NCBI GenBank assembly: GCA_020848615.1
Contig: JADLHW010000001.1
Location: 1 to 44,114 of the forward strand
Origin: Thermoleophilia bacterium
Lineage (GTDB): Bacteria; Actinomycetota; Thermoleophilia; Miltoncostaeales; Miltoncostaeaceae
Direction: 5' to 3'
Length of the DNA: 44,114 nt
Part shown: positions 6,741-12,566 of the stretch, in pieces
Numbering within the stretch: the first letter of the stretch is position 1
How the letters are laid out: every line of letters begins with the position of its first letter
Notes under the pieces: model-generated
Seen by the model: only the letters and a program-made list of their open reading frames with translations
Databases searched by the model: none
What the model was told of the DNA's origin: nothing
Program-made: the position numbers and the translations under genes

Positions 6741-8231
6741 TCAGCCGCCGGCCGCGGAGGTCGCCCCGCGGCGGCTCGGACCGCCCAGGGCCTGCACCAG
6801 CGCGCCGGCGGTCGACAGCGCCCGCGCCGGGGGCGGCGGCGTCCAGCGCCGCAGGATGCCGCCCGGGGGTCCCATCGCCACGATCATGATCCCGGGGATC
6901 GTCTCCGCGAGGTCCTCGATGACGTGGGCGGTCTCGAGCAGGTCGGCGTCGTCGCCCAGCATCAGGGCGACGGCCGCGGCGCCCAGGTCGGACACCGGCC
7001 GGGTCACGTCGGAGGCCGGCGGGACCTCCAGGATCACCGGCGTCCACCCCGCGGTGGCCGCGGCGTCGGCGGCCGCCGGCGTGGTGACGCGGCGCGCGTC
7101 GACGCCCAGGGGCAGCACGGCGAGCACCGCGGAGTCCGGCGGCGCGTAGACGCGCGGCCGGCGCGCCAGGCCCCACTCCAGCAGCGCGATCGCGCGGTGC
7201 TCCTCCGCAGGGCGGGCCGGCTCCGGGCCGCTGGCGCGCGACAGACGCCGCAGGGCGGGCTGGATGACCTCGTCGTAGGCGCCGGCGTGGCCGCGTTCCT
7301 CGAAGCACGTGCGCAGGATGTCGGCGACCGCGCGGGCATCGCCGTCCAGGCCCGCGCGCAGCAGCCGCTCCGCCTCCGCGGCCAGGCCCGACGCCCCCCG
7401 GGCGCCGCGGCGCCCGGGACCCGGGTCGACGATCGTGTCGAGCTCCGCGCGCCGGAGGAGGTCGGTGGCCGAGTCGCCGCGGGTGAGGGCCGCCACGCCC
7501 ACCGCGACGCCCACGCCGCCGGTACCGTCGCCCAGCGCGGCCCGCCGTGCACGCTCTGCGGCGGCCCGGGCGCCCTTGGCGTCCGCCTCGTGCAGGATCC
7601 AGGCGAACGAGTCGTCGCCGCTGCGGCCCAGGGTCTCCTCGGCGCGCACCGCCTCGCGCAGCCGTCGCGCGGCGGAGTGCACCGCCGTCCGCTGGTCGTT
7701 GGCCGGCCGGCCCGACGAACGCAGCCGCACGTTCACCAGGGCGAGGCTGCGGCCGTGCCGGAACGCGCGGCGCACCTCGGCGTCCAGCTCCGCGAGCAGG
7801 GCGGTGCGGTCGGGCAGGCCGTCCAGCGGCGACGGGGCCGACACCGACGGGCGCAGGGCCCGCTCCTCCGGGGAGTCCCGCACGAACGCCAGGACCAGCG
7901 GCACCTCCTCCCGGCGCACCAGATCCAGGCGCACCGGCACGCTCATGCCGCCGGCGGGCTCCCAGCGGGGCCGGGTGGTGAGGCCCATCGACCGGCCGCC
8001 GTGCCGCAGCAGGGCGTCCACGCTGGCGCGCAGCTCCCCGCGCGCCGTGTCGGGGAACAGCCAGTCGAGGGTGTGCCCCTCCGGCGCGGCATCGCCCAGC
8101 AGCTCGTCGGCGGCGGCGTTCACCGCGAGGATCGCCAGGTCCTCCGCGCCGGCGACCACCACGGCCTCACCGGCACCGCCCAGGACCGCGACGGCGGCCT
8201 GGAGGCTCGTCAGGAAATCGGCCGCGGCCAC
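6741..8231 (-). CDS. PAS / degenerate GGDEF / B12-binding-like signalling protein
   Basis: The protein has 496 residues and no membrane segment. About residues 1-115 fit a PAS sensor (VAVLGGAGEAVVVAGAED, AILAVNAAADELLG). About 130-270 resemble a GGDEF domain, with the opening LPDRTALLAELDAEVRRA, but the signature loop reads RSGDDSF instead of GGDEF, so cyclase activity is doubtful. About 290-345 resemble the helical module before B12-binding domains (LDGDARAVADILRTCFEERG, YDEVIQPALRRLS). About 370-470 resemble its Rossmann half (TAGWTPVILEVPP), but the cobalamin-ligating DxHxxG is replaced by VDARRVTTP. I infer a sensor or scaffold with two catalytically silent domains. It ends at a hairpin. 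Confidence 0.7.
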   Translation of the reverse strand: MAAADFLTSLQAAVAVLGGAGEAVVVAGAEDLAILAVNAAADELLGDAAPEGHTLDWLFPDTARGELRASVDALLRHGGRSMGLTTRPRWEPAGGMSVPVRLDLVRREEVPLVLAFVRDSPEERALRPSVSAPSPLDGLPDRTALLAELDAEVRRAFRHGRSLALVNVRLRSSGRPANDQRTAVHSAARRLREAVRAEETLGRSGDDSFAWILHEADAKGARAAAERARRAALGDGTGGVGVAVGVAALTRGDSATDLLRRAELDTIVDPGPGRRGARGASGLAAEAERLLRAGLDGDARAVADILRTCFEERGHAGAYDEVIQPALRRLSRASGPEPARPAEEHRAIALLEWGLARRPRVYAPPDSAVLAVLPLGVDARRVTTPAAADAAATAGWTPVILEVPPASDVTRPVSDLGAAAVALMLGDDADLLETAHVIEDLAETIPGIMIVAMGPPGGILRRWTPPPPARALSTAGALVQALGGPSRRGATSAAGG

Positions 8232-8255: not shown

Positions 8256-8471
8256 TCAGCGCCCGGAGGGCGCGTGCGCGGTGAAGTGGTGGTCCCCCGG
8301 ACGGCAGAAGAAGACCATGTGGCCCTCCGGGGTCGTCGCGACGCACGGACACTCGGGCGCGTGGTGGTCGGGGCACGGCCGGTGCACGCCGGCCAGCAGC
8401 CCGCCCTCCCGGACGGCCCGGGCCCCTCGCGGCATCCCGGCGGTGCGCGGAGCGTCGATCAGCGTGCTCAT
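8256..8471 (-). CDS. Small Cys/His-containing hypothetical protein
   Basis: The protein has 71 residues. Its ATG overlaps the stop of the upstream dehydratase gene in an ATGA, which implies translational coupling and supports a real gene. The second half has a Cys/His cluster (CPDHHAPECPC, then FFCRPGDHHF) that could bind a metal. No family is recognised. As the last gene of the glycan operon it may act with those enzymes or be an unrelated passenger. Confidence 0.55.
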   Translation of the reverse strand: MSTLIDAPRTAGMPRGARAVREGGLLAGVHRPCPDHHAPECPCVATTPEGHMVFFCRPGDHHFTAHAPSGR

Positions 8472-10405
8472 CTGTCCATGTCCCCTTCGGTACCCGGTTG
8501 CCTCAGGTTTCGGCTGTGGCTTTCGTCGTCGACGAGCCCGTCCCTGCCGATCCCGAGCGTCGTGGAGATCGCCGCGCCCAGCCCGTCCTCCCGGCGGGTG
8601 GCGACGCGGCGGCGGAGGTCGTCCAGCCCCCTCCTGAGCGTGTCAGGCGCGAGGGGCGATCTGGTGGCCCGCATGACCTTGCCATAGCGGGTCGAGCGCA
8701 CCTCTTCGTCGACGTTGAAGAGTTCCTCGTGCAGCTTCTCGCCGGGGCGGATCCCGACGACGTCCACCTGGATGTCGCGGCCCGGCTCGTGGCCGCTCAG
8801 CTCGATCATGCGGTGCGCCAGGTCCAGGATCCGGACGGGCTCGCCCATGTCGAGCACGAAGATGTCGCCGCCCTCGGCGATGCCGGTGGCCTCGATCACC
8901 AGCTGCACCGCCTCGGGGATGGTCATGAAGAACCGGGTCATCTCGGCGTGCGTGACGGTCACCGGCCCGCCCGCGGCGATCTGCCGGCGGAAGATCGGGA
9001 GCACGGACCCGGAGCTGCCCAGCACGTTGCCGAACCGCACGGCCGCGAACCGCGTACCGGACGAGGATGCGCGCGCCTCGATGATCCGCTCGCCCAGCGC
9101 CTTGGTGGCGCCCATCACGGTCTTCGGCTCCACCGCCTTGTCGGTGGAGATGAGGCAGAAGCGCTCCACCCCGTGCCGTTCGGCGAGCTCCGCCATGAGC
9201 TCGGTCGCCAGGGCGTTGTTCGCGACGGCCTGCAGCGGGTTGAGCTCCATCATCGGCACGTGCTTGTACGCGGCGGCGTGGAACACGATCTGCGGGCGGT
9301 GCTCGGCGAAGGCGCGGCCCATGGCCGCCTCGTCCTTGCAGTCGGCGATCACGGGCACCAGGCCCGACCAGCCCCGCTCCCGCAGCTCCAGGTCGATCTC
9401 GAACAGGTTGTTCTCGGCGTGGTCGACCATCACCAGCCGCCGGGCGCCGAGCGCCGCGACCTGCCGGCACAGCTCGCTGCCGATGGAACCGCCGGCGCCG
9501 GTGACCATGACGGTGCGGCCGTTCAGGTACCGGGCGACCTTGGCGAGGTCGATCTCGACGGGGGCGCGGCCCAGCACGTCCTCCACGCGCACCTCGCGCA
9601 GGCGCCGCACGGTGACGTCGCCGGTGATGAGCTCCGGGAGGCTGGGGAGCGTCGTGCAGCGCACGCCGGCGCGGCGGCACGCCTCGGCGACGTCCCGGCG
9701 CACCATGCCCGGCGCGGACGGCATCGCGATGATGACCTCGTCGACCTGGTGCTCCCGCAGCAGGCGCGGGAGGTCGGCGCGGGTGCCGCGCGTCTTGACG
9801 CCCATCACGCGCATGCCGCGCTTGCGCGGGTCGTCGTCGATGAGGCCCACCGGGTTGTAGCCCACGGACCGGTTGCGCCGCATCTCGCGGATGAGGATGT
9901 TCCCGGCGTCGCCGGCGCCCACGATGAGGGCCCGCTTGCCGCTCGCCACCAGCGCGTTGCGGCCGGGCCGCTCGATCACGCTGCGCACGATGAACCGCGC
10001 GCCGCCCACCAGCACGATGGTGAGGACCAGGTCGGCGACCAGCACGCCGCGCGGCACGGGCGCCACGTTGTCGGGCCGCCACAGGGTGAGCAGGGTGGTC
10101 ACGGCGAGGCTGCCGAGGGCGCATGCGGTCACGATGGCCTGCAGGTCCCGCAGCGACGTGAACCGCCACCACTTGGTGTAGAAGCGGAAGCCCACGAACA
10201 CCAGCAGCTTGAGGCACACGACCAGCAGGATCGTCCGGTCGAAGACCCGGTCGAACTTGCGCGTCACCTCCCAGTCGAACCGCAGCTGGAACGCGAGCCA
10301 GTAGGCGAGCCCCACCAGGGCGAGGTCGACGGCGGCCTGGCCCAGCCGGTGGGCGAGGGCGCGGGTGGTCCACATCGTCACGACGGCGCGTTCGGACGGG
10401 CTCAT
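8468..10405 (-). CDS. Membrane-bound FlaA1/CapD-type nucleotide-sugar 4,6-dehydratase
   Basis: The protein has 645 residues from MSPSERAV. About the first 130 residues hold four membrane helices (LALVGLAYWLAF, LLVVCLKLLVFVGF, VTACALGSLAVTTLL, LVLTIVLVGG). A CoA-binding-like Rossmann domain follows (ALIVGAGDAGNIL). The catalytic short-chain dehydrogenase-type domain has TGAGGSIGSE near residue 300 and STDKAVEPKTVMGATK near 425-435. The usual Tyr of YxxxK is Met, as in PglF-type long dehydratases, so this is not damage. The likely reaction is UDP-GlcNAc to the 4-keto-6-deoxy sugar at the inner membrane face. The start overlaps the DUF354 gene stop in ATGA. The DegT aminotransferase upstream could act on its product. 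Confidence 0.93.
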   Translation of the reverse strand: MSPSERAVVTMWTTRALAHRLGQAAVDLALVGLAYWLAFQLRFDWEVTRKFDRVFDRTILLVVCLKLLVFVGFRFYTKWWRFTSLRDLQAIVTACALGSLAVTTLLTLWRPDNVAPVPRGVLVADLVLTIVLVGGARFIVRSVIERPGRNALVASGKRALIVGAGDAGNILIREMRRNRSVGYNPVGLIDDDPRKRGMRVMGVKTRGTRADLPRLLREHQVDEVIIAMPSAPGMVRRDVAEACRRAGVRCTTLPSLPELITGDVTVRRLREVRVEDVLGRAPVEIDLAKVARYLNGRTVMVTGAGGSIGSELCRQVAALGARRLVMVDHAENNLFEIDLELRERGWSGLVPVIADCKDEAAMGRAFAEHRPQIVFHAAAYKHVPMMELNPLQAVANNALATELMAELAERHGVERFCLISTDKAVEPKTVMGATKALGERIIEARASSSGTRFAAVRFGNVLGSSGSVLPIFRRQIAAGGPVTVTHAEMTRFFMTIPEAVQLVIEATGIAEGGDIFVLDMGEPVRILDLAHRMIELSGHEPGRDIQVDVVGIRPGEKLHEELFNVDEEVRSTRYGKVMRATRSPLAPDTLRRGLDDLRRRVATRREDGLGAAISTTLGIGRDGLVDDESHSRNLRQPGTEGDMDR

Positions 10406-11472
10406 GCGCGGACCTCGGCGGGCGCCAGGACGAGGTCGAGGAGGGTCTCCGGGTCGCGCAGCGGCGGGCGGGCGTCGCGGGCGCGGCGTTCGAGGACCAG
10501 GTCCTCGGCGCGCTCCAGCCGCCGCAGGCGGCCGTCGGCGATGAGCGACCGGTCGACGGCGCCCATGCGGCCCGCGAAGGGGCTGTAGGCCGGCACGCCG
10601 AGGGCGGCGGCCTCGCGGTTCATGGTGCCCCCGGCGCTCACCACCACGTCGGCCAGGGCGATGAGGCTGGGGCCGTCCACGGGCCGCTCCGGGACGATCG
10701 CGGGCCTGCCCCGCAGCTGCTCCCGCTGCTCGGCGGTGCGCGGCAGCACGACGGTCTGCACGCCGTCCTCGTCCAGCAGGCGGTCGAGCGTCGCGGCGAA
10801 CACATCGCTGGAGAGGCCTCGGTGGTACAGGGTCACCTCGGGCGGCGGGCGGAGCACCGCGGTGATCCTCCCGCGGTCGAGGCCCAGCTCGTCCAGGACG
10901 CCCTCGTCGGTGCGGTGGTCCGCGAGGGAGTACTCCTCCTTGAGCCCCGGGTACCGCACGAGCTTCGGCGAGCGGATGCCGTAGCGCCACAGCGCCTGCT
11001 CGGGGATCGCCGCGGGCACCAGCACCCGGGTCGCCAGGCGCCCGTTCCAGTGGTGCATCGCCGCCGCGTACTCGTAGTCGAACATCGTGACCTGCGGGAT
11101 GCGGGCGGCGCGGGCGGCGAGGGGCTGGTCGGTGCTGCCGTGGGCGACCGCGAGGTCGAAGTCCCCGGACCGGGCGAACCGCACCAGCGCGGCGCTCCGC
11201 GACGCCATCGCCCGGGCCTTGCCGGCGCGGCCGGCGCCGCCGTGGGCGCCGAACACGCGGTGCACGATGCCGTATCGCTCCAGCAGCCCCAGGGTCTGCG
11301 CGAAGTCCCGCGCGGTGACGGTGACCTCGTGGCCACGGGCCCGCAGCCGGGCGATGAGCGGCGCGAAGATCACGACGTGCGGCGAGTTGGTGAGGTCCAC
11401 CCAGATCGACAGCGGCCGGCCCGCGGGTCCCCCCGCGCGCTCGGCGTCGATGCGCATGTGGCTCACGCTCAC
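10402..11472 (-). CDS. DUF354 family protein, probable GT-B-fold glycosyltransferase/epimerase-like
   Basis: The protein has 356 residues from a GTG at 11472 that overlaps the aminotransferase stop (GTGA). The N-terminus IWVDLTNSPHVVIFAPLIA, then GHEVTVTARDFAQTL, is characteristic of DUF354. The C-terminal half has VVSAGGTMNREAAALGVPAY, which looks like the nucleotide-sugar binding part of GT-B enzymes and UDP-GlcNAc 2-epimerases. It lies between a sugar aminotransferase and a sugar dehydratase, with four-base overlaps on both sides. This supports a role in making or transferring an unusual amino sugar. The reaction is not known. Confidence 0.85.
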   Translation of the reverse strand: MSVSHMRIDAERAGGPAGRPLSIWVDLTNSPHVVIFAPLIARLRARGHEVTVTARDFAQTLGLLERYGIVHRVFGAHGGAGRAGKARAMASRSAALVRFARSGDFDLAVAHGSTDQPLAARAARIPQVTMFDYEYAAAMHHWNGRLATRVLVPAAIPEQALWRYGIRSPKLVRYPGLKEEYSLADHRTDEGVLDELGLDRGRITAVLRPPPEVTLYHRGLSSDVFAATLDRLLDEDGVQTVVLPRTAEQREQLRGRPAIVPERPVDGPSLIALADVVVSAGGTMNREAAALGVPAYSPFAGRMGAVDRSLIADGRLRRLERAEDLVLERRARDARPPLRDPETLLDLVLAPAEVRA

Positions 11473-12566
11473 CCGGCGGCCACCCGGTCGGCGCTGCGCA
11501 CCGCGTCCACCACGGATGCGACCTGCTCCCGGGTGAGGTGCGGGTGCATCGGCAGGGCCACCGCCGTGTCGGCGCAGGCCTCGGCGACGGGCATGTCGCC
11601 CGCCCGGTACCCGAGGTGCGCGAAGACCGGCTGCAGGTGCATGGGTATTCCGTAGTACACGGCGGACGCGATCCCGCGCTCCTTCAGCGCCGACATCACC
11701 GATGCCCGGTCGGCGTGGCGCGCCATGTACAGGTGGTGGATGTGGCGCGCCCCGTCGCGCTCGGCCGGCAGGGTCATGACCTCACCGAGCCCGGCGGCCG
11801 CGTACGCGGCGGCGGCGGCGCGGCGGCCGTCGTTCCACCCGTCGACGTGGCGGAGGAAGATCCGGATGACGGCGGCCTGCAGCTCGTCCAGGCGCGAGTT
11901 GTAGCCGACCTCCTCGAACACGACCTTGTCACGGCTCCCATGGAAGCGCAGGCGTCGGACGCGATCGGCCAGCTCCTCGGTGCGGCACACCACCATCCCG
12001 CCGTCGCCGATGCCCGGCAGGTTCTTCGTGGGGAAGAAGCTGAAGGTCGCCAGGTCGCCCAGGGCGCCCACCGGGCGCTCGTCGGCGGTGGCCCCGAACG
12101 CCTGGGCGGAGTCCTCGACCACCGGCAGCCCGTGGGCCTCCGCGACGGCGCGGATGGGCGCCATGTCGGCGGGGTGGCCGAAGATGTGCACGGGCAGGAT
12201 CGCCCTGGTGCGCGGCGTGATGCGCGCGGCGATGAGGTCCGGGTCGATGCACATGTCGTCCTCGCGGATGTCCACGAAGACGGGGGTCGCGCCCAGCCGG
12301 GCGATGGCCTCGGCGGTGGCGAAGAACGTGTAGGGCGTGGTGATGACCTCGTCGCCGGGGCCCACGTCCAGGGCGTTGAGCGCGATGACCAGCGCGTCGG
12401 TGCCGTTGGCGACGCCCACGCTGGGGCGCCCCTCCATGCGGGCCGACACCTCGGCCTCCAGGGCGCTCACCTCGGGCCCGAGGATGAAGCGGCCCGAGTC
12501 GAGCACGCTTGCGATCGCGCGATCGATCTCAGCGCGAAGCGGCCCGTACTGGGCCCCGATGTCCAT
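11469..12566 (-). CDS. DegT/DnrJ/EryC1-family PLP sugar aminotransferase
   Basis: From the ATG at 12566 it has 365 residues. Family features include SGRFILGPEVSALE, VGVANGTDALVIAL, DEVITTPYTFFATAEAI, VVEDSAQAFGA and the PLP lysine in FSFFPTKNLPGIGDGG (about residue 181). Related proteins usually start a few residues earlier (xIPxxDLxAQY). Here the upstream in-frame codons give SVPL, preceded by a CTG at 12581 with GGAG at suitable spacing, whereas nothing suitable precedes the ATG. A CTG start at 12581 is therefore plausible. It likely aminates the 4-keto sugar made by the dehydratase of the same operon, for a surface glycan. It is the first gene of the operon. Confidence 0.93.
   Translation of the reverse strand: MDIGAQYGPLRAEIDRAIASVLDSGRFILGPEVSALEAEVSARMEGRPSVGVANGTDALVIALNALDVGPGDEVITTPYTFFATAEAIARLGATPVFVDIREDDMCIDPDLIAARITPRTRAILPVHIFGHPADMAPIRAVAEAHGLPVVEDSAQAFGATADERPVGALGDLATFSFFPTKNLPGIGDGGMVVCRTEELADRVRRLRFHGSRDKVVFEEVGYNSRLDELQAAVIRIFLRHVDGWNDGRRAAAAAYAAAGLGEVMTLPAERDGARHIHHLYMARHADRASVMSALKERGIASAVYYGIPMHLQPVFAHLGYRAGDMPVAEACADTAVALPMHPHLTREQVASVVDAVRSADRVAAG

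Follow-up and report, generated by a model that had tools for sequence, protein, structure and literature searches.

Cobalamin-binding domains (CBDs) that respond to light share a four-part signature of GxxW, EH, GxxH and GxxxP (SignatureFinder, PMC11796333), and fusions of photocobilins with diguanylate cyclases (DGCs) have been described (PMC10979010). AbDPcob, a DGC-CBD fusion reported to be a photocobilin diguanylate cyclase, carries its cyclase domain ahead of a CarH-type CBD, possesses the light signature, binds AdoCbl and bears an extra biliverdin-binding domain (PMC11796333, PMC10979010). HaAI-2E (WP_052573826) joins CBD and DGC domains to an AI-2E exporter domain and carries Arg where H177 would stand; a CBD-DGC protein of this kind is not predicted to be a photoreceptor (PMC11796333). 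CarA of Myxococcus xanthus is described as working independently of B12; its CBD scaffold keeps the EH pair and the lower-axial B12 motif, is without the Trp, and has a MerR-type DNA-binding partner (PMC9304148). PelD and BcsE, finally, contain degenerate GGDEF domains tied to polysaccharide production, in which the c-di-GMP I-site is kept (as RxxD in PelD); the descriptions drawn on here mention no CBD in either protein (PMC7112168, PMC8461298).

The locus considered here lies in a window of 44,114 nucleotides of a Thermoleophilia genome and encodes a 496-residue protein (hereafter the 496-aa protein) whose parts and neighbours are given in Table 1. The protein has the domain order of AbDPcob, a cyclase-type domain followed by a module related to CarH-type CBDs, but differs from it in the broken light signature and in the missing biliverdin-binding domain. 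Compared by description and not by sequence, HaAI-2E shares the domain pair and the Arg substitution and differs in its exporter domain. The EH pair without the Trp is as in CarA, from which the 496-aa protein departs in its partner domain and in the loss of the lower-axial motif, and the degenerate GGDEF domain is as in PelD and BcsE, from which it departs at the I-site. The open reading frame is a genuine gene: long plus-strand frames overlap it too, but the Pfam matches and the evolutionary constraint sit in the minus-strand frame, and an antisense artefact was rejected on these grounds.

Table 1. Features of the 496-aa protein gene and of the genes upstream of it, in window coordinates.
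Feature	Coordinates	Strand	Remarks
496-aa protein gene	6741..8231	minus	GTG start; stop included in span
Rossmann-type B12-binding-like part, residues 361-484	6780..7151	minus	joint profile; pairwise match to L098; R380
B12-binding_2-like helical cap, residues 283-360	7152..7385	minus	PF02607 below cut-off; cap profile; E344-H345 kept, Trp lost
Degenerate GGDEF domain, residues 130-265	7437..7844	minus	PF00990; paralogue alignment
PAS-like N-terminal region (probable), residues 1-120	7872..8231	minus	PAS_4 sub-threshold; own PAS profile
71-aa Cys/His-rich ORF, upstream	8256..8471	minus	ATG overlaps stop of CapD-like gene
Polysacc_synt_2 (CapD-like) gene	8468..10405	minus	
DUF354 gene	10402..11472	minus	4-base overlaps on both sides
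DegT/DnrJ/EryC1 aminotransferase gene	11469..12566	minus	

The original prediction gave a PAS domain and, after it, a GGDEF-like domain with the signature RSGDDSF. The first of these stands as probable: PAS_4 scores 15.8 bits on the protein and 18.8 on its orthologue, below the curated Pfam cut-off of 23.1, and our own PAS profile gives 11.3 and 14.6 bits, respectively, with three of 5000 shuffled N-termini reaching 11.3. The second was borne out by a PF00990 match above threshold (E 5.2e-8; 33.3 bits against a Pfam cut-off of 23.8) and by the motif R203-S-G205-DDSF, while the NCBIfam model TIGR00254 reached 30.2 bits, under its cut-off of 37.4. Alignment with seven paralogues from the same genome (seven of its eight other matches) shows that an Asp retained by all seven is R169 here, that a nucleotide loop present in all seven is shortened by five residues, that the GGEEF signature, kept by the paralogues, has become GDDSF at residues 205-209 (GPDSF in the orthologue), and that the C-terminal lysine of the domain is also gone. 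We take the R169 column to be that of the metal-site Asp, and the deleted segment to be the nucleotide loop, as in GGDEF enzymes.

Because the catalytic elements are missing from both orthologues, synthesis of c-di-GMP by the 496-aa protein is not expected, and nor, judging from the residues present, is any cyclase catalysis by its GGDEF domain. The earlier suggestion that the protein could bind c-di-GMP without making it is weakened and not supported by the I-site, whose RxxD reads RxxE (R196-A-E-E199). This change is conservative and recurs at the I-site of five of the seven aligned paralogues, which makes it weak evidence either way on c-di-GMP binding.

Assignment of the C-terminal half depends on the profile used. 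PF02607 scores 17.4 bits on the whole protein and 19.3 bits (E 0.0013) on the C-terminal part, where the better E of the two orthologues is 0.00035, all under the Pfam cut-off of 23; PF02310 finds no match in the protein, and a genome search with PF02310 does not list the locus. A 27-row CBD profile, from which we left out L060 (matched by the 496-aa protein's own profile), L098 and the mis-framed L073, L076, L086, L088 and L096, gives 30.8 bits for the protein and 32.8 for the orthologue, against 10.6 for the best of 5000 shuffles. Since searches with L060 had supplied 26 of those 27 rows, this profile is one step removed from the 496-aa protein and not independent of it. Divided by subdomain, the cap-only profile still yields 26.8 bits (best shuffle 10.2), and the Rossmann-only profile is not significant at 3.6 bits (best shuffle 15.1). 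Significance is reached only with this more varied set: a 30-row MerR-CBD profile fails, at 3.0 bits for the protein and 7.1 for the orthologue (best of 2000 shuffles of the protein's own C-terminus, 10.9 and 8.3), and hhalign against the MerR-CBD set returns a probability of 1.4%.

Searches begun from the C-terminal pair itself were less informative. A PDB profile search gave unrelated proteins, with a best E of 0.22. Across 399 genomes, a two-row C-terminal profile matched 11 at E <= 0.01, nine of them outside the genus; the best of the nine was a binding-protein-like ORF (6.2e-5), followed by a CBD protein (8.7e-5), and those of the remainder that were read show no CBD, so that this search alone is no proof of CBD homology. 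AlphaFold2 models built from two-row alignments (mean pLDDT 38.9 for the whole protein and 41.5 for the C-terminal half) are too poor to judge the fold; Foldseek returned no match to the C-terminal-half model at E <= 0.001, and CarH CBD chains recur among its insignificant rows, at E 0.95 and above. By a profile score significant on its own, the cap is homologous to that of CBDs; the Rossmann half may be related to the CBD, with support that is only joint or pairwise.

Comparison with CBD columns shows that, of the light signature, EH alone is intact. The upper Glu-His pair of the cap is kept as E344-H345; GxxW is absent (S331..S334, with Ser at the conserved Trp), GxxH is replaced by V-D-A-R380, which puts Arg at the cobalt-ligating (lower-axial) His in both orthologues, and GxxxP has Glu at its Gly column and retains the Pro. 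Among 59 compared CBD rows, which include duplicate genes (L036 = L087) and the deliberately added L103, the Trp is present in 55, the cap Glu in 58, the cap His in 58 and the cobalt-ligating His in 58. The cap and joint profile scores, together with Arg380 in both copies, agree with the initial reading of this half as a two-part B12-binding-like module without the cobalamin His. Judged by these residues, the B12-type part should not be capable of binding cobalamin via the usual His, and with both that ligand and the cyclase elements lost, light sensing of the CarH type is not expected of the 496-aa protein.

Two other CBDs depart from the pattern. L103 (G055:C1:1960900-1965500), a CBD-like protein of the same class in which no GGDEF was seen, has lost the Trp, both residues of the EH pair and the lower His; loss of all four key residues is therefore not unique in the class. 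L102 (G159:C35), read as an HD-GYP type protein, has a C-terminal CBD without the Trp in which EH and the lower His are kept, as described for CarA.

The nearest intact counterpart comes from a genome of the same family, where L098 (G013:C141; L132 in the GGDEF tree) reads as a GAF-GGDEF-CBD protein. Its GGDEF domain, cap and Rossmann start are collinear with those of the 496-aa protein; unlike the latter, it has intact GGEEF, Wx9EH and GNAH motifs and no PAS-like N-terminus. Two-sequence BLASTP aligns the two at E 1e-8 (33% over 303 columns, residues 136-401), and a pairwise comparison of the cap together with the Rossmann start reaches 45.4 bits, against 30.8 for the best of 2000 shuffles. 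The CBD of L098 continues in another frame near the protein end, and its pieces were therefore compared separately; on their own, the Rossmann pieces give borderline scores (29.3 bits against 27.3 for the best shuffle, and 30.4, equal to the best shuffle). In a reverse search of 42 genomes, the L098 CBD piece found the orthologue of the 496-aa protein at E 1.2e-5, and the 496-aa protein itself was not listed at E <= 1e-4. As judged from motifs, further proteins of the class join a CBD to GGDEF, EAL or HD-GYP type domains; the domain names given to L077, L082, L095, L098 and L102 are likewise motif readings. The domain order and double loss had been put forward as unusual: both losses are real and common to the two orthologues, but the order is not unusual, given this same-family protein and the published fusions.

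A GGDEF tree of 37 rows, which leaves out five ORFs without a signature by pattern search, places the 496-aa protein pair weakly beside another GGDEF domain (support 85/80) rather than L132; the stem leading to the pair is 2.21 changes per column long. An AU test does not reject a clade of the pair with L132 (p-AU 0.398), a result that does not show such a clade. The shared architecture makes it plausible that the 496-aa protein descends from a protein of the GGDEF-CBD kind.

Full-length relatives are present in two of 42 family genomes, the source genome included, and the C-terminal half in two of 249 class genomes at E <= 1e-4; the one orthologue found, 86% identical, comes from the genus's other genome. 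A scan of named genomes gave one locus, LNFL01000182.1 (Actinobacteria bacterium Ga0077560), and a viral scan no relative. With two sequences found, constraint is measured on a single pair, whose dN/dS of 0.146 marks purifying selection; neighbouring genes in the same genome pair give 0.167 (Lon), 0.143 (CapD-like) and 0.326 (HxlR). By domain, the ratio is 0.070 for the cap, 0.095 for the Rossmann part, 0.183 for GGDEF and 0.192 for PAS, so that in this pair constraint is strongest on the former cobalamin module. In 30-residue windows, 451-480 is identical in both copies, and two windows that lie outside the B12 half, 1-30 and 241-270, are equally conserved.

The DegT, DUF354 and CapD-like genes and the 71-aa ORF lie on the same strand upstream of the 496-aa protein gene and are linked by 4-base overlaps; the 496-aa protein gene begins 24 bases past the last of them. 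A Pfam scan of the 71-aa ORF (8256-8468) gave no match. Of 249 class genomes, 35 have a homologue of the ORF, and every one of these belongs to the 42-genome family; its two copies differ by 21 synonymous and 11 non-synonymous codons in 66. The CapD-like gene adjoins it in all eight loci examined (from eight of the 35 genomes), and the 496-aa protein gene stands beside this pair in two of the eight, both of its own genus, a difference indicating a genus-specific addition to a conserved pair. A role for the 496-aa protein in polysaccharide control is a possibility, although the operon link, as read from gene order, is weak.

We consider it somewhat more probable than otherwise that the 496-aa protein, as a relative of the GGDEF-CBD (cobalamin-linked diguanylate cyclase) proteins, is a soluble, non-catalytic, cobalamin-independent adaptor in signalling, and it probably works through protein contacts or another ligand. 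Selection would then maintain the scaffold and not catalysis or the cofactor: the PAS-like part may take up a cue or dimerise, the pseudo-GGDEF domain may transmit or dock, and the cap and Rossmann module may be the chief surface for protein contacts or for dimerisation without a ligand, comparable to the CarA scaffold, with the adjacent polysaccharide operon as a potential target. More tentative, at less than even odds, is the idea that a B12-photoreceptor-type domain and a dead cyclase were exapted into a cobalamin-free sensor or switch with a new or purely structural input.

Haem is held by a B12-type domain in SCHIC, and the module here could likewise be a sensor of some other small molecule, such as a nucleotide, haem or a corrinoid bound without a His ligand, with E344-H345 and R380 in the pocket. 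The retained EH pair and the strong constraint on cap and Rossmann part, including the identical stretch 451-480, are consistent with such a sensor, but the Gly of GxxxP is Glu, and we think it unlikely. Somewhat more doubtful, from sequence and gene order, is a degenerate GGDEF domain that acts as a c-di-GMP receptor in the manner of PelD and BcsE (PMC7112168, PMC8461298) and controls the polysaccharide genes, as its position downstream of the overlapping DegT-DUF354-CapD-like set might suggest; against this, the I-site reads RxxE, in Bacillus cereus PelD an Ala substitution of either the Arg or the Asp in RxxD is reported to abolish detectable binding (PMC7112168), and the upstream gene pair is kept in relatives without the 496-aa protein.

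The remaining alternatives bear on the C-terminal half and on the gene as a whole. That this half is an unrelated helical plus alpha/beta module would accord with the missing PF02310 match, the failure of the MerR-CBD profile and hhalign, a Rossmann-only score not above shuffles and the poor model without a significant Foldseek match; the cap, significant alone, the collinear alignment with the GGDEF-CBD protein L098 and the CarH chains among the insignificant Foldseek rows argue otherwise and make it very unlikely. Loss of catalytic and most cofactor residues and a very long branch could mark a B12-linked diguanylate cyclase gene in decay to a pseudogene, but the reading frame is intact in both genomes, and the gene-wide ratio of 0.146, lowest in the silent B12 half, argues against decay; we rejected this explanation on dN/dS and regard it as the most improbable of all.

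A narrow literature search on GGDEF and cobalamin-binding proteins turned up no report of both domains degenerate. The domain order, a CBD with Arg for His and the Trp-less CarA are already in the publications drawn on here; what the 496-aa protein adds is a case of the GGDEF-CBD type whose two domains both look silent yet are under selection. It suggests that catalysis and cofactor binding can both disappear from GGDEF-CBD proteins with strong constraint remaining on the CBD scaffold. Annotation of such genes as cyclases or light sensors therefore calls for caution, and losses of this kind may be a route by which the CBD fold acquires new ligands.
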